Assembly: GCF_000215975.1 (NCBI RefSeq)
Contig: NC_015682.1
Location: forward strand, 62,001-126,000
Reading direction: 5' to 3'
Source of the DNA: Thermodesulfobacterium geofontis OPF15
GTDB taxonomy: Bacteria; Desulfobacterota; Thermodesulfobacteria; Thermodesulfobacteriales; Thermodesulfobacteriaceae
DNA length: 64,000 nucleotides
Part shown: piece by piece, positions 3,430 through 22,073 of the stretch
How the letters are laid out: the number at the start of each line of letters is the position of its first letter
How positions within the stretch are numbered: position 1 is the stretch's first letter
Notes under the pieces: model-generated
What the model saw: the letters and a program-made list of their open reading frames with translations, nothing else
Databases searched by the model: none
What the model was told of the DNA's origin: nothing
Translations under genes and position numbers: made by a program

Positions 3430-5940
3430 ATGAGGCTTTTTACTTATATTTTATTTTTTTTAGCTCTTTTTTTACCAAATCTTTCCTTAGGAACTCCTCC
3501 TTTTCTTGAAATAGACTTAGAAATTTATCCGGAGTCAAATTCTCTTAAAGGTTCTTTCTTTATAGATAAATTAAAGGGAGAATATAAATTTATAACTTCA
3601 GATCTAACTATTAATGAAATCCAAACCTCCTCTGAGTTTATTTTTGAACAAGAAGAATTTTTAAAAATTTTTGCTAAAGAAGAAAGTTCTTTATATATCT
3701 CCTTTGAAAAAGCCCTCAATCCCTTTCTTTTACCTATAACCATTATCCATCCACCTTTCCCCTATCCTAACAAACCTTTTACTTACCAAATTAAACTCCA
3801 AATTCCGGATAATTTAAAAAATATAGAAATTTTAATTCCATCAGAAGAATCAGAAATAAAAAGAGAGTCAAACTTTTTGCTTTATACCTTTAAAACTAAA
3901 ACTCCTCTATTAGATCCCTGCATAATTATAAGTACTCTTAAATTAGAAAAAATTAAATTTTCTTATAAAAACTTTATTTTTCATTTTTACTATTTCCCAC
4001 AGCTTTATAATTTATCTGAAAAAGATCTTAAGAGGTTTTTCGAGAATTTTAAACACTTTGCACAATATTTAGAAAATTTAGAAATTTTTCCCTCTTCTCC
4101 TAAAACATTTCATATTATTTTAGTTCCTGAAGATTTCCCCAAAATTCAAGATTTTTCAAATACTTTATTTATTAATTATTCATCCCTAAAAGATATAAAA
4201 CAATTCATCCACTGTTTAGCTAAAAAAGAATTTGAAGATGAAATACTTTTAGAAGAGGAAGAAATAAAAAAAGGTTTAATTACCTATTTAATAGATTATC
4301 AATTTTCTGAGAATAAAAAAGATTTTAGGAAATTACAAGCTCTATTTCCTAAAAATGAAACAAAGGCATTCTTTTATTTCTTATTTTTAGCTGAAAAATT
4401 GGGTGAAAAAAACTTTATAAACCTTTTCAAAAAATTTTATGAAGAAAGTATTTTTAATTATAAAAGTTTAAAGGATTTTTTAATTTTTGTTCAACAAAAT
4501 TATCCAGAATTTAAAAATTTCATAATTCCCTATGAGGAATTTCAGAAACTAAGTTTAAGGGGAGAAATAAAAGCTATCACACAAGAAAAAGATTTTTATT
4601 TAATAAACTTAACCCTTTATACTAATTTAAATTCGAAAAATCTGGTTACCCCTATACCCATCCCCCTTAAAATAGAAACTGAAAGGGAAAGTAAATTTTT
4701 AGTTTTAAATTTAGAAAAGGAAACTCAAGATTTTCAGATTTCTGTTAATGAAAAACCGAAAGCAATATTTATAGATCCAGAATATAAACTTTGGAGAGAT
4801 TTAAATTTTGAAGAAATACCTAATTGCATAGCTAAACTTTTTTATTCTCAAGGTACCATTATTCTCAAAAGAGACGATCTTCCCATTTATAAAAAATTAA
4901 TTGATTATTTTAGAAAATTAGGTTATAAGGTATCTTTTTCTTTTGTTGATTTTTCAGAAGTTTCTAATTTTTCTGAAAATTTAATTTATTTAAACATTTC
5001 TCCTCTTCTTTGGCAGTTTACCCCACCTTCTGAAGGCTTTTATTTAAAAGTTCTTCCCAATCCTTATAATTCTAATTACATAATAGGATATCTGTATGTT
5101 TCTTCCCAAAATGAATTAGATTGGGCTTTAAAAAATTTAGCTTCTCTAAATTTTTATTCAGAAATATTCATACAATCTGGGAAAATTATTTCAAAAAAAG
5201 AAGACAAAACTTTAGAAGGTATACCAATATTTATACCCGCCCCCTTAGGGAAATCTTGTATTAAAGAGAATTTTTCATTTAGAGAAGAAGCTTTAAAATT
5301 GATCAATTCTCAAATGGTTTTAGTTGGAATAGAAAAAGATTCTCCTTTTTGTAAAGATTATTTTAAAAATTTTTTACAAAGTATTTATAATTTAAACACA
5401 AATATCGTTTTAGCCTTAGATTTACCACCCTCTTTTCAGAAGTTTTTAGAGGATTATTTTGAAAATAAAATTTCGGAATCTCAGTTTAAAGAAAATTTTA
5501 AAAATATAGATTATCTCAATACGGAAGTAGTTTTAGAAATAATAAATTGGGCAAAAATGAACAAAGTGAAAGTATTTACTATTGGTACTGATTCTGAGCT
5601 ATTTTTAAAAATTTTAAATAATGGATTAAAAAGCCTTTCACAAGAAGAACTTTCAAAATTACCTGAGATAGACATTTTAAATCCTTCTTATAAAAAGTAT
5701 TTATCTTCATTATTTATGGCTTCAGAAAATTTACAAAAATTTAATTTTGAAAATTTTTATGAGGCTCAAGTGTTTAGATTAGAAGATTTAGCAGAAAAAA
5801 TCAAAAAACTTTTAGAAATCTTTAATTCTAAACAATTTATTATATTTATTGAAAGAGATTTAATAATAAAAAATTGGGAACTACCTTTCTATTTACAAAA
5901 AAGAAATATCTTAGATTTCAAAATTGTCAATTTTAACTAA
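3430..5940 (+). CDS. Exported protein with degenerate M1-peptidase-like region and C-terminal ChaN-like domain
   Basis: An 836-residue protein with a clear signal peptide (residues 1-21, cleavage near LSLG-TPP). Residues about 20-460 read like the beta-scaffold and helical domain of an M1-type aminopeptidase, but where HExxH is expected the sequence is H261-C-L-A-K265, and the following family block EGLxTYL reads K281-GLITYL, so zinc ligands and the catalytic Glu are missing. From about residue 585 it matches the ChaN-like haem-binding lipoprotein pattern (VLALDLPP, ISESQFKENF, LSQEELSKLPEID, NFENFYEAQVF), again without the usual GE-H start motif (VGIEKDSPFCKDY). It stands alone between purQ and HU and is probably periplasmic. 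The domain assignments are by eye; function unknown, perhaps a binding or scaffold protein. Confidence 0.6.
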   Translation: MRLFTYILFFLALFLPNLSLGTPPFLEIDLEIYPESNSLKGSFFIDKLKGEYKFITSDLTINEIQTSSEFIFEQEEFLKIFAKEESSLYISFEKALNPFLLPITIIHPPFPYPNKPFTYQIKLQIPDNLKNIEILIPSEESEIKRESNFLLYTFKTKTPLLDPCIIISTLKLEKIKFSYKNFIFHFYYFPQLYNLSEKDLKRFFENFKHFAQYLENLEIFPSSPKTFHIILVPEDFPKIQDFSNTLFINYSSLKDIKQFIHCLAKKEFEDEILLEEEEIKKGLITYLIDYQFSENKKDFRKLQALFPKNETKAFFYFLFLAEKLGEKNFINLFKKFYEESIFNYKSLKDFLIFVQQNYPEFKNFIIPYEEFQKLSLRGEIKAITQEKDFYLINLTLYTNLNSKNLVTPIPIPLKIETERESKFLVLNLEKETQDFQISVNEKPKAIFIDPEYKLWRDLNFEEIPNCIAKLFYSQGTIILKRDDLPIYKKLIDYFRKLGYKVSFSFVDFSEVSNFSENLIYLNISPLLWQFTPPSEGFYLKVLPNPYNSNYIIGYLYVSSQNELDWALKNLASLNFYSEIFIQSGKIISKKEDKTLEGIPIFIPAPLGKSCIKENFSFREEALKLINSQMVLVGIEKDSPFCKDYFKNFLQSIYNLNTNIVLALDLPPSFQKFLEDYFENKISESQFKENFKNIDYLNTEVVLEIINWAKMNKVKVFTIGTDSELFLKILNNGLKSLSQEELSKLPEIDILNPSYKKYLSSLFMASENLQKFNFENFYEAQVFRLEDLAEKIKKLLEIFNSKQFIIFIERDLIIKNWELPFYLQKRNILDFKIVNFN

Positions 5941-11497: not shown

Positions 11498-12067
11498 ATG
11501 TGGCTTTTTTGTGGTCTTGGAAATCCAGGTGAAAAATATAAAGATACTAGACATAATTTTGGCTTTTTAGTTATAGATAATTTTGCTAAAAAACATAGTT
11601 TAGATTTTAAATTTTATAAAGATTTAGAAAGTGAAGCTGCCTTTTATGAAGATAAAGCAATTTTAATAAAACCTCTAACTTATATGAATCTTTCAGGAAG
11701 AGCTGTTAAAAAATGGATAACAAAAGAAAATATACCATTTACTAATTTACTTGTAATTTATGATGATTTAGATTTACCACTCGGAAAGATTAAAATTTTA
11801 CCGAAAGGTGGAGCAGGAGGACACAAAGGAATGCTTTCTATAATTGAATCTTTAGGAACTACAGAATTTCCAAGAATGAGATTAGGGATAGGAAAACCTT
11901 CAAATGGTTCAGTAATAGATTATGTGCTTTCCCCTTTTTCAAACGAGGAAAAACCAAAAGTAATAAAGGTTTTAGAAATTTCTTCTTCTGCTTTAGAAGA
12001 TATTCTTAATTTAGGACTTTTTAAAACCATGACAAAATACAATTCTTTAAACGAACTTTTAGAATGA
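11498..12067 (+). CDS. pth: Peptidyl-tRNA hydrolase
   Basis: Pth frees tRNA from peptidyl-tRNA released by stalled ribosomes. The N-terminal block GLGNPGEKYKDTRHNFGF carries the conserved Asn and the catalytic His; KPLTYMNLSGRAV, the catalytic Asp in VIYDDLDLPLGKIK and the GGAGGHKGMLSI loop follow. At 189 residues it is the normal bacterial length. It starts five bases after rplY and its stop overlaps the next gene as ATGA. Confidence 0.97.
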   Translation: MWLFCGLGNPGEKYKDTRHNFGFLVIDNFAKKHSLDFKFYKDLESEAAFYEDKAILIKPLTYMNLSGRAVKKWITKENIPFTNLLVIYDDLDLPLGKIKILPKGGAGGHKGMLSIIESLGTTEFPRMRLGIGKPSNGSVIDYVLSPFSNEEKPKVIKVLEISSSALEDILNLGLFKTMTKYNSLNELLE

Positions 12068-12555
12068 AAATTAATAAAAATCTTAAACTTTTGCAAATTT
12101 CTGGTAAAACCTTTCTTTTAAAAGCTGAAGAAATAGGCTATTATTTAATTTCTGTAGGTTTATTGATAGGATTTGCATTACTTGTCTTCGACGGCTTTAA
12201 AATCCTTTTAAATATTTTTTCCTATGAAAACCTTAGCCAAGCTGCTATTCTTTTTTTGGATAAAATTCTAATTGCCTTAATTTTTATAGAAATCTTTTAT
12301 ACCGTTCAAGTTGCTTTATTAGAAGAAAGTGCAATAAAATGTGTAGAGCCCTTTCTTTTGGTAGCAATAACTGCTTTAATAAGAAGACTTCTTATTTTAA
12401 GCTTTGAAATATCTCATGTCAAAGATATTCCTATTGAAAAACTAAAATATTTTCTTATAGAATTATTAGAAATATGTTTTTTAGTATTAGCTTTACTCTT
12501 AGGATTAATTCTTTTAAGAAAAACAAGAAAAGAAAAAAATGCATCCCCAAAATAA
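12064..12555 (+). CDS. PsiE-family-like membrane protein
   Basis: A 163-residue protein with about four hydrophobic segments (about residues 26-50, 66-84, 93-118 and 128-152) separated by short loops, and the pattern [15 protein letters not shown] followed by [18 protein letters not shown], which resembles phosphate-starvation-inducible PsiE-family proteins. The role of PsiE is not known. It is coupled to pth by a four-base overlap and its last 17 bases overlap the start of guaA, so it is clearly expressed within this operon. The family call is by eye and moderate. Confidence 0.6.
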
Positions 12556-14086
12556 GGTTTTAGTTCTTGATTTTGGATCTCAAACTACCCAGCTTATTGC
12601 TCGCAGAATAAGAGAACTTGGAGTTTATAGTGAAATTAAACCCTGTTTTATTAGCTTAGAGGAAATTAAAAGCTTTTCCCCCTCTGGTATAGTTTTTTCT
12701 GGTGGACCAAGTAGTGTATATGATAAAAATGCACCTCTTATTGATAAAGAAATTTTTAGTCTTGGAATACCAATTTTAGGAATATGTTATGGTGCTCAAT
12801 TAATTACCTATATTTTAGGAGGGGTTGTTGAAAAAAGTGATAAAAGAGAATTTGGACCAGCTTATATAGAAATCTTAAAAACAAATAAGCTTTTTAAGGG
12901 GCTTAAAAAAAACAAAAAATATAAAGTATGGATGAGTCATAGTGATAGAATTGAAAAATTGCCAGAAGGTTTTTATGCTTTAGCAAAAACTGAAAATTCT
13001 CCCTTTGCAGCAATAGCTCATGAAACCAAAGCTTTATATGGAGTTCAGTTTCACCCAGAGGTAATACATACTGAAATAGGTAAAAAAATTTTACATAATT
13101 TCCTTTTTGAAATATGCAAATGTAAAGCTGATTGGAATATGCCCTCTTTTATTGAAGAAACCATAAAATATATTCGTAACCTTGTTAAAGATGAGGAAAA
13201 AGTTATATGTGCCCTTTCAGGAGGTATTGATTCTACTGTTACAGCTATACTTGTACATAAAGCTATAGATGATAGACTTATCCCAATTTTTGTAAATAAT
13301 GGACTTTTAAGAAAAAATGAACCCGAAGAAGTTTTAGATTTAATGAGAAGTCTTGGACTAAAGGTTCATTATGTGGATGCAAGTTCTATATTTTTATCTC
13401 GTTTAAAAGGGATTAAAGACCCAGAAAAAAAGAGAAAAATTATTGGTGAAACCTTTATTGAAATTTTTGAAAGGGAAGCCCAAAAATTTGAAAATGTTAG
13501 ATATCTTGCTCAGGGAACTCTTTATCCTGATGTAATAGAAAGTACATCTTTTAGAGGACCCTCTGCAACAATTAAAACCCATCATAATGTAGGTGCTCTT
13601 CCAGAAAAAATGAATTTAAAACTAATAGAACCTTTAAGAGAGCTTTTTAAAGATGAAGTAAGAAAAATTGCTGAGCTTTTAGGATTACCCAAACATATAG
13701 TTTGGAGACAGCCCTTCCCTGGTCCAGGATTAGCTGTAAGGATAATTGGAGAAATTGATGAAGAAAAACTTAATATTTTAAGAGAAGCAGATGCAATAGT
13801 AACAGAAGAAATGCTTAAATCAGGATGGTATTATAAGGTGTGGCAAAGTTTTGCTGTTCTTCTCCCTATAAAAACTGTTGGTGTTATGGGAGATTTAAGA
13901 ACATATGAATATGTAATAGCTATAAGATGTGTGGAAAGTCAAGATGCTATGACTGCAGATTGGGTTAAACTTCCCTATGAAATTTTAGAAAAGCTCTCAA
14001 ATAGAATAATAAATGAGGTAAAAGGTGTAAATAGAGTTGTATATGATATTTCTCCAAAACCACCAGCTACTATTGAATGGGAATAA
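12539..14086 (+). CDS. guaA: GMP synthase (glutamine-hydrolysing)
   Basis: GuaA converts XMP to GMP using glutamine-derived ammonia. The class-I glutaminase domain has nucleophile Cys83 in GICYGAQ and the His/Glu pair in [12 protein letters not shown]; the ATP-pyrophosphatase domain has the [10 protein letters not shown]-loop, and the dimerisation domain ends with the diagnostic KPPATIEWE. The 515-residue length is normal. The start overlaps the upstream psiE-like gene by 17 bases and the stop overlaps the downstream lipid-kinase-like gene by ten, suggesting coupled translation through three unrelated functions. Confidence 0.98.
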
Positions 14087-14634
14087 ATCTTTATAGAAAA
14101 CTTTTTCATATTCTTGTAGGATTAATCATATATGGTTTAAGCTATAAAATCTCCTATTTTTCTTTGGGTTTAATTTTAATACTTTTATGGACAGGATTAT
14201 CTCTTTTTGAATTTTTACGTTTGTTTTTTTATAAATATCTTCCTCTAAAATTTTTGTGGTTGCCTCTTCTTAAAGAGGAAGAATATAAAAAAATAAGTGA
14301 TGCTTGGTATTTTTTAGCTGGAATTTTTTTCAGCTGGTTCATTTTAGATTTAAAATATTTTCAAATTATTCTTTTAATTTTAACCTTAGCAGATCCTTGT
14401 GCCTCTATAATTGGATATTATTTTGGTAGAATTAAATTGAAAAGCAGTAAAACCTTAGAAGGTAGCTTAGCTTTTTTTATAACCTCCTTTTTAATCCTTT
14501 TTTTTAATATAAAAACCCTTTTTTCTTCCCTTTATTTATGCTCTATAATCTTGTCTTTAGTTGAGGCTTTTACTAAAAGAGATAATTTTTGGATACCACT
14601 AATTGGCAGTTTATACCTTAAAATATTAGGATAA
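14077..14634 (+). CDS. Diacylglycerol/polyprenol kinase family membrane protein
   Basis: A 185-residue integral membrane protein. It begins with the [15 protein letters not shown] helix typical of dolichol/phytol kinase and CTP-dependent diacylglycerol kinase-like proteins and contains the CDP-alcohol-like nucleotide motif [14 protein letters not shown] followed by [10 protein letters not shown]. Such enzymes phosphorylate prenols or diacylglycerol using CTP. The lipid substrate here cannot be read from sequence. It overlaps guaA by ten bases and precedes the ACT-MBL gene by nine. Confidence 0.75.
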
Positions 14635-14643
14635 AATAATATT

Positions 14644-16203
14644 ATGTTCCAACTCTGGCAATCCTTAGATAATTCTAATTTTTTATGTAAAGCAGTTCTT
14701 TATGTCCCAGATAAACCAGGATCTCTTGCTAAATTGGCAAATTCTTTTGGAAAATATGGAATAAATATAACCTACTTTTATTATAACCGCTCTGAACATC
14801 CTAATAAAGTAATAATAGAGGCAAAACATGAAGAACTCAGTCCTTTTAAACTCCTTTTTGAAGAGCTTAAAAAAGAAAATTTTTTAGAAGAGAAATATGA
14901 AGAAGACCTTCAAATAGTCAATCCAAACAATATTCTCAAAATATCTGTTTATTTGGAAAATAAACCAGGAACCTTAGCAAGATTTGCTGAATTGCTTAAA
15001 AAGTATGAAGCAAATGTAATTTACATGATCTATAATGAAGTTATTTCTGAAAACAGAGGTGAAATAGCCTTTTATGTTAAAAAACCTGAACAAATAAATG
15101 CCCTTGCTCAAGAAATGAATTTACTTGGATATTATTATAATTTTGAATATTCAGGAACAGATGAAGAAAAAACTAATAAAATAATAGGTCTCAATCTTTT
15201 GGAAAGGTTTTTCTTAAGTCTTAAAAAATTAATAGGAGAAGAAGAGACTGAAAAAGTAAAAGAAATTATAATGACTTCTAAGATGCTATCAGAAACATTA
15301 ATAAATTTCAATAGAGAATCCGGAAAAAATTTAGAAATAGGTCAGATTTTCAATAAAATTTTAACCTTTGCTATCTCCTCAATTTCAAAAAGAGGAAAAA
15401 ATTTTAATTATAAAAGATTACCTACTCTTCCTATAGGAAAAATTCTTGTTTACTCTTTTCGACCTCCTACAGGAGGAAATATCTATATTTTAAAAGGAGA
15501 AACTGAAACAATAATGATAGATGGTTCTTATGGAATTTATTATGAAGATGTAAAAAAAATGCTTGCGGAAAATCAAATTGATCCCTCTAAAATTAAAAAA
15601 ATCTATTTAACCCATGCTGATGCTGATCATGCAGGTGTAAGCGGTTATTTTGAAGAAGAATATAGAACAGAGGTGTATCTTCATCCTGCATCAAAGGGTA
15701 TTATAGAAAATGAAAATAGAGCCTACGGAACCGATACCCCTCTTTTTCAATTAAATCATTATTTTACTATTCTGGTAAATTATTTTACCAAATCCAAATT
15801 TCCTAAGGATGGGAAATTTTTTGATATAAAACCAAAAGAATTTTGTGGAGCTTTTCCTGTTATAGATTATTTTAGATTAGATGGAATAGAATTTAAAATA
15901 TTAGAGAGTTTGGGAGGACATATTCCTGGACAAGTCTTTTTCTTATCTGAAGAATTGGGTTTATTTTTTACTGGAGACTATCTCCTTTATGTTCCCAGTT
16001 TGAGTGAAGAAGAAAAAAGCTTTCTAAATATTCCCAAATTATTGATGACAAGTACCAATGTAAATTCTAAAGTATTTAGAGAAGAAATGGAGTTATTAAA
16101 AAATCTTGCCCAAAAAATAGACTCCTATTTATTAGAGAAGGGAAAAGGTCTATTAATTCTGCCTGGACATGGTGATTACTATCCTATTCGTTTGATTTTT
16201 TAA
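14644..16203 (+). CDS. ACT-ACT-linker-metallo-beta-lactamase fold protein
   Basis: A 519-residue fusion. Residues about 14-80 and 98-165 are two ACT domains (VPDKPGSLAKLANSFGKYGI and ENKPGTLARFAELLKKY), small-ligand sensing modules usually tied to amino acids. A helical linker at about 175-255 leads to an MBL-fold hydrolase with GGNIYILKG, the metal motif H324-A-D326-A-D328-H329, and later probable ligands His426 (GGHIPGQ), Asp445 (FTGDYLLY) and His509 (PGHGDYY). The second position of canonical HxHxDH is Asp here, recalling the acidic substitution in flavodi-iron proteins. No flavodoxin domain is present. The substrate is unknown; ligand-gated hydrolysis or redox is only an inference. Last gene of the operon. 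Confidence 0.75.
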   Translation: MFQLWQSLDNSNFLCKAVLYVPDKPGSLAKLANSFGKYGINITYFYYNRSEHPNKVIIEAKHEELSPFKLLFEELKKENFLEEKYEEDLQIVNPNNILKISVYLENKPGTLARFAELLKKYEANVIYMIYNEVISENRGEIAFYVKKPEQINALAQEMNLLGYYYNFEYSGTDEEKTNKIIGLNLLERFFLSLKKLIGEEETEKVKEIIMTSKMLSETLINFNRESGKNLEIGQIFNKILTFAISSISKRGKNFNYKRLPTLPIGKILVYSFRPPTGGNIYILKGETETIMIDGSYGIYYEDVKKMLAENQIDPSKIKKIYLTHADADHAGVSGYFEEEYRTEVYLHPASKGIIENENRAYGTDTPLFQLNHYFTILVNYFTKSKFPKDGKFFDIKPKEFCGAFPVIDYFRLDGIEFKILESLGGHIPGQVFFLSEELGLFFTGDYLLYVPSLSEEEKSFLNIPKLLMTSTNVNSKVFREEMELLKNLAQKIDSYLLEKGKGLLILPGHGDYYPIRLIF

Positions 16204-19022: not shown

Positions 19023-20633
19023 TTATCTCTTAAGATTAATCAATTCTTCAAGCATACTATCTGAAACAGTAATAATTCTTGCATCTGCTTGAAACCCTCT
19101 CTGAAAGATTATCATCTTAACAAACTGTTCTCCAAGGTCTACATTAGATTGCTCTATAGAATTGGGAGCAATTGTTCCCAGTCCATTAGTTCCTGGTTTT
19201 CCTGTGACAGGAGGTCCTGAATGGGTGGTCTCTTTAAAAAGATTACCTCCTACTTTCTGAAGTCTTTCTGGGGCATTAAAATTAGCAAGAGCAACCATCC
19301 AAAGAGGAATTACTCTACCATTTGAATAATAACCAGTTATCCTTCCTTCATTATCAGCAGCAATACTTTCTAAAGTCCCTGGTCCATATCCATTTTGGTC
19401 ATAAAATAAAGTAGCAAAAGGAGCGGAGTATTGGGTTGTTCTAACTGTTTCAGAACGCCATGAAGTTCCATCATGATAATATCCAAAATTAAGCTCTATA
19501 GGTTGTAAATTACGAGTAGCTGATGGATCTTCATTACCATTATTATCTGCAATTTTAATTCCTAAAAAATCTGCTATAAGTATAGGATAACTATTTGCTC
19601 CAAGTGCTCCTATAGTTGTGGTAAAATAATTGCTCTCTGCAAATGCATCATTAGGAGGTGGATTTTGTGGAATCCCGTTATTATTAACTATTCTAACTAA
19701 TTGATATTGGTTATTATTGGCATCCCATCCATATCTATAAACATTAAGAAAGTTTTTAACATTTCCCTGAGTGTCAAATTCAAGCATCCCATACATTAAT
19801 ACACCTTTCTTTGTGTTATCAGAAAATCCTTGTCTTAAATCTTCATTAGGATTACAAGTAACTAAAAATTCATAAACAGGCTTGGTTGTAGTTCCATCTG
19901 TTAAATTTACAGCTCTATAATAAATAGTTATTTCATGAGGTGTTCCTAAGGAATCATAAATATACAATGAAGTTCTATAATTATAATCGGTTGTTGCAAG
20001 AGGTGTAGCCAATGTAGCATCCCATTTCCCCCAAAGAGTAACTTTGTTATTGTCTGTAATAGAATTATCCCCAAAAATAGCATTATTAGTATTATCAATA
20101 GTTGTATTTCTTTCAACTTCTGCATTAAGATTGGTAATTACATCAACTAAGCTTGTTTTAACAGGGGGTGAACTTCTATCAATGCGAATATCAGTTATAG
20201 CACCAGTTATATCTCCTGTTGCCTCATCGATTTTCCACCCTTGAACTCTTAGTCCTGCTGCATTAACTAAATATCCTTCTTTATCAATCATAAATTGACC
20301 ATCTCTGGTATAAAAAACTCTTCCTGTTGCTCTGGGATCATTTACTATGAAAAAGCCATTTCCTGCAATAGCAAGGTCTGTTGGATTAGCTGTTGACTCA
20401 AAGGAGCCTTGAGTAAAAATTGGATATAATGCCTGAAGGGTTGCTCCTCTACCAAGCTGACCAGAACCAGAAGCAGTATTTATGCTCTGTGCCATTATAT
20501 CACTAAATGAAACTCTTGAAGCTTTAAAGGCTGTAGTATTAAGATTAGCTACATTATCTCCTACAACACTCATACCATGCCCTAAGGACCTAAGTCCACT
20601 TGTTCCTGTAAATAAGGCATCAGTTAAACCCAT
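19023..20633 (-). CDS. flgE: Flagellar hook protein FlgE
   Basis: FlgE polymerises into the flagellar hook. The 536-residue product has the rod/hook N-terminal helix with the signature GDNVANLNTTAFKASRVSF, the ANPTDLAIAGNGFFIV motif of hook/basal-body proteins, and the C-terminal helix SNVDLGEQFVKMIIFQRGFQADARII. The central variable domain accounts for the extra length over enterobacterial FlgE (about 400). A strong AAGGAGGTG site precedes the ATG, 36 bases after the other flgE-like gene. It is the last gene of the sigma-54-type operon; which of the two paralogues builds the hook shaft cannot be proved here. Confidence 0.93.
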   Translation of the reverse strand: MGLTDALFTGTSGLRSLGHGMSVVGDNVANLNTTAFKASRVSFSDIMAQSINTASGSGQLGRGATLQALYPIFTQGSFESTANPTDLAIAGNGFFIVNDPRATGRVFYTRDGQFMIDKEGYLVNAAGLRVQGWKIDEATGDITGAITDIRIDRSSPPVKTSLVDVITNLNAEVERNTTIDNTNNAIFGDNSITDNNKVTLWGKWDATLATPLATTDYNYRTSLYIYDSLGTPHEITIYYRAVNLTDGTTTKPVYEFLVTCNPNEDLRQGFSDNTKKGVLMYGMLEFDTQGNVKNFLNVYRYGWDANNNQYQLVRIVNNNGIPQNPPPNDAFAESNYFTTTIGALGANSYPILIADFLGIKIADNNGNEDPSATRNLQPIELNFGYYHDGTSWRSETVRTTQYSAPFATLFYDQNGYGPGTLESIAADNEGRITGYYSNGRVIPLWMVALANFNAPERLQKVGGNLFKETTHSGPPVTGKPGTNGLGTIAPNSIEQSNVDLGEQFVKMIIFQRGFQADARIITVSDSMLEELINLKR

Positions 20634-20669
20634 ATTTTTTCACCTCCTTTTTATTATAATATCGGTTAT

Positions 20670-22073
20670 TTATACTTTATTAAAAAAGTATTCTAAAAGT
20701 TGGTCTGCAGTAACAATCGTCCTTACATTGCTCTGAAAAGCCCTTTGTAAAACAATTAAGTTTATCATTTCTGTAGCTAAATCTACATTTGATCCCTCCA
20801 AAGCACCCGAAATAAGTCTACCTCTCTCATAAAGACCTGGAGCAAATATAAAAGGTGTTGCTCCATCTCTAGCTAAAAATAAATTTGAACCTATTTTAAT
20901 AAGAGAGTCTTCATATCCTGTAAAATCAGCTAAAAATATTTTAGCTACCTCTATATTTTGTCCGTTTGTATACCAAGCCTTTATTAAGCCTTCTTCAGTG
21001 ATAACTTCTATTTTATCAAATATTCCCTGAGAATATCCATTTTGATTATAATAAAGTTGGACAAAAGGGTTAGCTAAAAGTTTGCTGGCATAAGAAGCCC
21101 TTGTAATACTCCCATCTTTTTCTACCTTAAATCCTAAGTCTAAAGTTATGGTTTGAGTATTTCCTTGAATATTTAAATTAAATTGTGGTCTTCCTAAGGT
21201 GGTTAAGTCCAAGGGGGGATCTATATTAGGATCAAAAGAAGAGGGATTAGTAATTTCCCAAAATCTTGCATCTGTAATATCTCCATTTCCTCCAAAACTT
21301 AAGATTCCATAAAGAAAAACACCTTGATAAGGACCTTCTCCTCTTCCATCAAGAGTAGGATCTTCAAGGGCAACTAAAATTTCATATTCATTAGAATTAG
21401 AAGTTCTGTCTGCATAAAGTTGAAGAATCCTTCTTTCTCCTAAATTATCGTAAATAGGTAAACTCCATACAAAGTCATATCTTCCCTCTTTTAGAGCTAC
21501 TTCTTGAGTAGCATCATAATTTTTCCATAAAGGATCATCTATTCCCTCTACAGGTTTTCTACTATCAAAAATTACTTGAAGATTTATTTCATCTGTTCCC
21601 TTAGGAGGCATAACCTTAGGAATAAGGTAGGGTTTTAAAGATGCTAAATCAGCAGTTTGAGCTGTGGGATCAGCTCCTAAAAGGTAAAGCCCTAAACTAT
21701 TCTGAAGAGCAAAGTGATTTTCATCTACTTGGTTTACAAAAAATTGTCCATCTCTGGTGTAAAAGATATCTCCTTTTTTGTCTGAAACTATAAAAAATCC
21801 CTTCCCAGAAATAGCTAAATCTGTAGGAATATCTGTGGTATTAATTCCTCCTTGAGTATATAAAGTTCTAATGTCTTTGACCTTACTTCCTAATCCCTTT
21901 TCTTTCATAAATACTTCATTAGTTGCTAATATTGATTCATTCGCAAATTCATATCTACTTCCTTTAAATCCTGTTGTATTAAGATTAGCAATATTATCAG
22001 CTGTTACTCTCATACCAGTAGTAGTAGTACAAACACCACTATAACAGGTATAAATTGTTCCAAATATTCCCAT
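20670..22073 (-). CDS. Second FlgE-like flagellar hook/basal-body protein
   Basis: A 467-residue paralogue of the adjacent hook protein. It shares the terminal assembly helices (ADNIANLNTTGFKGSRYEF, IPTDLAISGKGFFIV, SNVDLATEMINLIVLQRAFQSNVRTI) but differs across the central domain and begins with an unusual cysteine-containing stretch (IYTCYSGVCTTTTGM). It may be a second hook subunit, a hook-cap or junction-like form, or a specialised rod/hook protein. It starts two bases after flgD and precedes flgE, so all three are coexpressed. The family is certain, the specific role is not. Confidence 0.88.
   Translation of the reverse strand: MGIFGTIYTCYSGVCTTTTGMRVTADNIANLNTTGFKGSRYEFANESILATNEVFMKEKGLGSKVKDIRTLYTQGGINTTDIPTDLAISGKGFFIVSDKKGDIFYTRDGQFFVNQVDENHFALQNSLGLYLLGADPTAQTADLASLKPYLIPKVMPPKGTDEINLQVIFDSRKPVEGIDDPLWKNYDATQEVALKEGRYDFVWSLPIYDNLGERRILQLYADRTSNSNEYEILVALEDPTLDGRGEGPYQGVFLYGILSFGGNGDITDARFWEITNPSSFDPNIDPPLDLTTLGRPQFNLNIQGNTQTITLDLGFKVEKDGSITRASYASKLLANPFVQLYYNQNGYSQGIFDKIEVITEEGLIKAWYTNGQNIEVAKIFLADFTGYEDSLIKIGSNLFLARDGATPFIFAPGLYERGRLISGALEGSNVDLATEMINLIVLQRAFQSNVRTIVTADQLLEYFFNKV

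Follow-up and report, generated by a model that had tools for sequence, protein, structure and literature searches.

ACT domains are familiar chiefly as parts of biosynthetic enzymes and transcription factors. In IlvH, the regulatory subunit of acetohydroxyacid synthase, residues L9, N11, L16, N29 and V35 are related to valine binding, and C. glutamicum IlvN carries an Asp at the position of N11, according to the part of the source drawn on here (PMC11893703). The fusion of ACT domains with a metallo-β-lactamase (MBL) fold is not described in the accessible parts of PMC7285479 and PMC1796856, which is no proof of its absence from the literature.

On the MBL side, the C-terminal domain of Moorella ComEC has an Asp at the second position of the metal motif (equivalent to D326 of the protein described below) and is stabilized by Mn2+ and not by Zn2+, as stated in the available section of PMC8579336. 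The same section reports that this domain cuts DNA with Mn2+, that its phosphodiesterase activity needs Mn2+ or Co2+, that its motif III has an Asn in place of His, and that stabilization could not be assessed for Co, Ni and Cu. An HxDxDH motif is also reported for the AHL lactonase Y2-AiiA (PMC6146095, excerpt). Here we analyze a protein of Thermodesulfobacterium geofontis OPF15 in which two ACT domains precede an MBL domain with this motif. The ACT-ACT-MBL architecture defines a genuine and broadly distributed family, which is new in its combination of known domains and in its fixed variant of the metal motif.

Domain organization of the ACT-ACT-MBL protein

The window, the whole stretch of 64,000 nucleotides that was analyzed, encodes the protein in an open reading frame that begins 9 bases after the stop of the upstream gene. 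The coordinates and length given in the original prediction are exact, and the order of two ACT domains followed by an MBL domain is borne out by Pfam and by the structure model. The features are as follows.

14644–16203, plus strand: ACT-ACT-MBL gene, an open reading frame of 519 aa
14680–14910, plus strand: ACT domain 1 (ACT1; residues 13–89), from Pfam, the IlvH alignment and the structure model
14932–15153, plus strand: ACT domain 2 (ACT2; residues 97–170), from Pfam, the IlvH alignment and the structure model
15163–15387, plus strand: helical linker (residues 174–248), from the structure model, which has low confidence there
15427–16200, plus strand: MBL-fold domain (residues 262–519), from Pfam, the model and PDB matches
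15613–15630, plus strand: metal motif H324-A-D326-A-D328-H329 (HxDxDH in 39 of the 39 rows with residues there)
15919–15921, plus strand: predicted metal ligand His426 in GGHIPG (38 of the 38 rows with residues there)
15976–15978, plus strand: predicted bridging metal ligand Asp445 (38/38 rows)
16057–16059, plus strand: invariant Asn472 (38/38 rows)
16168–16170, plus strand: predicted metal ligand His509 in PGHG (38/38 rows)

The whole protein matches the Pfam models ACT (PF01842) with 38.7 bits and ACT_AHAS_ss (PF22629) with 31.7 bits (cut-off 27 for each), both scores being sums over the two units, and Lactamase_B with 53.6 bits over residues 274–455 (cut-off 22.7). When the units are excised, PF01842 gives 25.9 bits for ACT1 (E 8.7e-6) and 21.0 bits for ACT2 (E 2.9e-4), so that both are significant but fall slightly short of the whole-protein cut-off of 27. 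In each of two relatives (L038 and L054), the ACT region contains two stretches that exceed the cut-off.

A model of residues 1–258 (mean pLDDT 64.7) contains two successive β-α-β-β-α-β units, residues 13–89 and 97–170, plus a helical segment. Its best PDB matches include the ACT domains of homoserine dehydrogenase, prephenate dehydratase and IlvH, together with other ferredoxin-like folds, e.g. ribosomal protein S6. The comparison with IlvH (2f1f) yields a Z score of 9.9 and an rmsd of 11.8 over 142 residues, which indicates that the two ACT units do not superpose together. The whole-protein model (mean pLDDT 59.5) matches MBL-fold chains of the PDB with Z scores up to 15.6. Within its MBL domain, ten-residue blocks average 67–92 over residues 261–350 and 381–440; the model is weak in residues 441–480 and 501–519, which hold D445, N472 and H509 (ten-residue means of only 29–59).

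Putative ligand site of the ACT pair

Both ACT units were compared with E. coli IlvH (K-12 record) in a 26-row alignment. The IlvH residues N11, G14, L16 and N29, of which we take G14 to belong to the valine site as well, align with D23, G26, L28 and N41 in ACT1 and with N106, G109, L111 and N124 in ACT2. The equivalents of G14, L16 and N29 are kept in 26/26, 26/26 and 26/26 rows in ACT1 and in 26/26, 25/26 and 26/26 rows in ACT2. At the N11 position, ACT1 has Asp in 25 rows and Asn in one, and ACT2 has Asn in 16, His in eight and Asp in two. The V35 position is occupied by Tyr in all 26 ACT1 rows and by Tyr or Phe in 25 of the 26 ACT2 rows. Since both ACT domains keep most of the IlvH valine-binding residues, an amino-acid-like ligand is plausible for the pair, and the Tyr/Phe at the V35 position suggests that it is probably not valine.

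An invariant HxDxDH metal motif

The metal site was read from an alignment of 40 rows, one of them the window protein and five of them fragments; two fragments come from G212 and two from G261, each pair being taken as one gene. As the original prediction noted for the window protein, HxDxDH stands in place of the canonical HxHxDH motif, which is absent from the aligned family (HxDxDH in 39/39 rows), and the later ligands His426, Asp445 and His509, described there as intact, are invariant. As a baseline, 24 of the 25 other MBL matches of the first phylum search were readable, with 23 HxHxDH, one HxExDH and no HxDxDH motif. Judged from these alignments, the HxDxDH motif of the family is therefore more than a chance feature.

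The protein's own genome has 10 Lactamase_B matches, comprising seven HxHxDH, one HxExDH and two HxDxDH proteins. The latter are the ACT-ACT-MBL protein and the ComEC/Rec2 protein L087 (TIGR00361, 200.5 bits; cut-off 190.05), which contains the competence membrane domain PF03772, a domain with no match in the ACT-ACT-MBL protein. ComEC is a closer precedent for HxDxDH than the flavodiiron proteins are.

By analogy with ComEC, the acidic D326 might favor Mn(II) or Fe(II) over Zn(II). This suggestion is weak because ComEC is distant (9.5 bits; see below), differs at a second ligand (the Asn of motif III) and is also active with Co2+, and because the stabilization data do not extend to Co, Ni and Cu. 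Iron is considered a candidate because of the presumably anaerobic life of the hosts: Thermodesulfobacterium, Thermodesulfatator, Thermodesulfovibrio and Methanosphaera are anaerobes. An ordinary ACT-controlled zinc hydrolase, with the Asp simply taking the place of His as a Zn ligand, would have a counterpart in the Y2-AiiA lactonase with its HxDxDH motif (PMC6146095, in the part available) and would agree with the otherwise standard ligands. We consider it unlikely, as the family is diverse and yet invariant in its acidic residue, and as Zn2+ does not stabilize ComEC, which carries the same substitution (PMC8579336, same section as above).

Relationship to other MBL-fold proteins

To place the MBL domain within the fold, a profile of 26 family MBL domains was compared with the PDB and with each of the 10 MBL proteins in the own genome. 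After the protein itself, the genome's best match is the GloB-like protein L082 (29.2 bits), followed by L088 (23.1 bits), ComEC (9.5 bits) and the flavodiiron protein L090 (8.8 bits); the other five score 7.8 to 0.5 bits. Both L082 and L088 are HxHxDH proteins. L082 reaches 111.9 bits with the NCBIfam model GSH_gloB (cut-off 200.8) and 94.7 bits with the sulfur dioxygenase model (cut-off 625); it is not a proven hydrolase, because it lies under the GSH_gloB cut-off and also resembles the sulfur dioxygenase model.

In the PDB, the best profile matches are TTHA1429 (2zo4, 47.1 bits) and BLEG-1 (7ev5, 40.9 bits), followed by the hydroxyacylglutathione hydrolases 2xf4 (38.3 bits) and 7l0b (38.0 bits) and then a lactonase, with flavodiiron chains lower in the list (1vme at 22.3 bits and less). 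GSH_gloB, the glyoxalase II model, gives the ACT-ACT-MBL protein 18.9 bits, far under its cut-off of 200.8, and the matches of the MBL domain to NCBIfam hydrolase models likewise stay well short of the cut-offs. By these profile scores, the MBL domain appears closest to GloB-like and lactonase-like proteins, and the protein is a relative, not a member, of glyoxalase II.

The nucleases of the fold deserve separate consideration. HxDxDH is common to the family and to ComEC, a Mn2+-dependent phosphodiesterase/nuclease (PMC8579336, in the section cited), and the genome's own ComEC is the sole other HxDxDH protein among the 10 Lactamase_B matches. RNase J and CPSF73-type nucleases occur among the weaker PDB profile matches, and L088, the second own-genome match at 23.1 bits, resembles a β-CASP-type nuclease by eye. 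These points would suit an ACT-regulated phosphodiesterase or nuclease that depends on Mn like the ComEC C-terminal domain. However, the family profile scores ComEC at only 9.5 bits compared with 29.2 for L082, ComEC lacks the GGHxxG motif, and Pfam finds no β-CASP match in the ACT-ACT-MBL protein, which leaves this alternative with a low probability, a little under that of the zinc enzyme.

A flavodiiron reading is not supported

Flavodiiron-like oxygen handling had also been put forward in the original prediction, which noted that no flavodoxin domain is present; Pfam indeed finds no flavodoxin match. The second motif position is Asp and never Glu in 39/39 rows, unlike the flavodiiron HxExDH motif. 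The Pfam ODP model scores the protein at 24.2 bits, under the cut-off of 27.2. Among the family members, 21 of the 26 reach E ≤ 0.001 with ODP, the lowest value being 6e-7; the match of the window protein is not specific, because the HxHxDH, GloB-like L082 scores 43.8 bits. The same genome encodes a separate flavodiiron protein elsewhere (L090, HxExDH), with both ODP (78.2 bits) and Flavodoxin_1 (60.8 bits) above cut-off. Where L090 has IHWPDSM and PDHGVVWR, the ACT-ACT-MBL protein has GGHIPG and PGHGDYY, and an HWPDSM-type motif is absent from it. Membership in the flavodiiron/ODP group was rejected on the missing flavodoxin domain, the differing motifs and the profile scores (29.2 bits for L082 versus 8.8 for L090; ODP 24.2 versus 43.8 for L082), and the oxygen-handling part of the earlier reading is not supported.

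A diiron protein that reacts with O2 or NO, or another MBL-fold oxygenase, with the ACT pair replacing flavodoxin, is improbable in our judgment, against the arguments that can be made for it. These are the shared acidic character of the second motif position, the ODP matches of the family, the anaerobic named hosts, and the resemblance of L082, the best own-genome match, to the sulfur dioxygenase model. Flavodiiron chains also head the structural search with the full model (Z 15.6), a search that does not separate the subfamilies, since chains of the flavodiiron, B1, B3 and other MBL types are tied.

Distribution and phylogeny of the family

The homologue search proposed in the original prediction returned a family that keeps the ACT-ACT-MBL order even at 25% identity, with members in Thermodesulfobacteria, Nitrospirota and one Methanosphaera plasmid; in alignment A2, each of the 26 proteins has matches to PF01842 and to Lactamase_B (E ≤ 0.001). 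The first phylum search gave matches at E ≤ 0.001 in 53/148 genomes, and in only five of these did they cover the whole protein; those in the other 48 were partial, nearly always of the MBL domain. The search within the taxonomic order detected near-full-length relatives in 12/41 genomes, including 7/14 of the same genus. With the 26-row profile, a relative at E ≤ 1e-20 was found in 10/395 genomes of the same phylum and in 24/395 genomes of Nitrospirota, the phylum of the Thermodesulfovibrio isolate G186. The plasmid matches, 25.3% identical over 95% of the query, are two versions of one Methanosphaera plasmid. A pattern search of viral contigs matched 52 stretches, none of them a relative. 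Searching the whole protein against its own genome (1,634,377 bases, one contig) returned only itself at E ≤ 0.001.

The closest named relative (L002, 86% identity) comes from an isolate labelled Thermodesulfobacterium geofontis; the identity is 64% to the Thermodesulfovibrio relative and 55–56% to those of five other genomes of its genus. The frame in L002 is open and lacks a usual start codon around 4931–4980, the expected start lying upstream of a long T run, which is probably due to an assembly or sequencing error.

In the 35-row family tree, three rows from Thermodesulfovibrio and two genomes of its phylum share a supported group (97/98) with six rows that come from Thermodesulfobacterium and from an isolate labelled Thermodesulfatator. 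A distant clade of its own (98/98) is made up of seven rows from family f39 and other genera of the order. This topology suggests gene transfer between phyla. The Methanosphaera row has a very long branch and an unsure place.

Genomic setting

The gene is flanked by guaA and a small membrane protein on one side and by yceD and plsX on the other. This arrangement was found in the window and L002 only among 25 sources compared, namely the window, L002, L003, L004, L043 and 20 further stretches (G165, G171 and G186 being represented by L002, L004 and L003; G153 and G175 left out; the split genes of G212 and G261 not used). The family itself was counted in 24/25, because the crude ORF caller let an antisense ORF hide the family gene in L076. 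No neighbor family is widely common among the 25 sources: the commonest occurs in 5/25 (GGDEF-type proteins by eye) and three occur in 4/25, and the window's neighbors are common to L002 only. The neighborhood is not conserved and therefore leaves the substrate without a clue.

A stand-alone gene without widely conserved partners would be in keeping with an ACT/MBL protein that acts as a sensor or scaffold without catalysis. A dead domain, though, is not expected to retain the complete set of metal ligands without variation, as the family does, and we regard this reading as very improbable.

Within the window, the directly upstream gene (14077–14634), which overlaps the end of guaA, encodes a 185-aa protein, membrane-type by eye, with a sole Pfam match at E 0.08 and no NCBIfam match at E ≤ 0.1. 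A PsiE-family (phosphate-starvation-inducible E) protein is encoded at 12064–12555, between pth and guaA, with a 17-base overlap with the guaA ORF. Two adjacent minus-strand genes at 19023–22073 cluster by sequence with a flagellar-hook-like protein of L002 (label by eye) and are possibly duplicated hook genes.

For 20 family loci, Rfam at gathering thresholds gave six matches, all tRNAs. ARAGORN located tRNAs in the flanks of 6/34 family loci (L003, L006, L036, L048, L058 and L106): Val in one, Pro in two congeners, His, Glu and Gln in one, Ala in one and Leu in one; it found no tRNA in the window. The tRNA genes at these six loci would fit mobility. PADLOC matched LmuA (6.4e-6), Avs1a (0.0028) and PDC-M48B (0.0066); a role in a defense system was set aside, as the matches sit on residues 274–340, the common MBL motif region.

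Proposed mechanism and significance

Our best explanation is a stand-alone two-metal MBL-fold hydrolase, probably a Mn or Fe rather than a Zn enzyme, gated by a small ligand at the tandem ACT domains; we judge the chances of this reading to be about even. The gating ligand would most likely be an amino acid. The gated-hydrolase reading is supported by the conserved ACT-ACT-MBL order, the fixed set of metal ligands and the conserved ACT ligand-site residues; the same observations lend indirect support to the ligand-controlled metallo-hydrolase of the original prediction. It is weakened by the poor site model around D445, N472 and H509 and by the want of a conserved neighbor pointing to a substrate. 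ACT domains can also serve for assembly alone, which is a point against ligand gating.

In the proposed hydrolase, H324, D326 and H426 would form metal site 1 and D328, H329 and H509 metal site 2, with D445 as the bridge, an assignment that we presume to carry over from two-metal MBL hydrolases. The acidic D326 would make the site prefer Mn(II) or Fe(II) to Zn(II). Binding of a small ligand between the ACT domains might move the helical linker, and this movement might open or order the active site. Candidate substrates are an ester, thioester, lactone or phosphoester.

Both families would be extended by an ACT-controlled MBL-fold hydrolase whose motif suggests a metal other than zinc, and such an enzyme could reveal a signal or a detoxification step tied to amino acids in anaerobes. 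Thermophile proteins, e.g. of Thermodesulfobacterium, should be stable enough for direct testing. More speculatively, and rather doubtfully, the family might be an amino-acid-gated, non-zinc (Mn or Fe) MBL family that was passed between Nitrospirota, Thermodesulfobacteria and methanogens and whose members act on a metabolite or nucleotide signal, opening or destroying it according to amino-acid supply. If true, this would be a previously undescribed type of nutrient-sensing hydrolase.

Comparison with known systems

The GloB-like proteins (hydroxyacylglutathione hydrolases, TTHA1623, TTHA1429 and BLEG-1) share the MBL fold and the GH-x-x-G and GHG motifs with the window protein and are its best profile matches; in contrast to their HxHxDH motif, the window protein has HxDxDH, and it carries an N-terminal ACT pair and a helical linker. 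The C-terminal MBL domain of ComEC/Rec2 has the same Asp at the second motif position (HxDxDH), but ComEC/Rec2 is a membrane competence protein without GGHxxG and with a low family-profile score (9.5 bits). Flavodiiron proteins and ODP share the MBL fold and an acidic motif residue, and the ODP match of the window protein is partial and under the cut-off; they differ in having Glu rather than Asp and an HWPDSM-type motif, and flavodiiron proteins possess a flavodoxin domain. IlvH shares the ACT fold and most valine-site residues at the same spacing, whereas the window protein has Tyr/Phe at pocket position 35 and a fused MBL domain.
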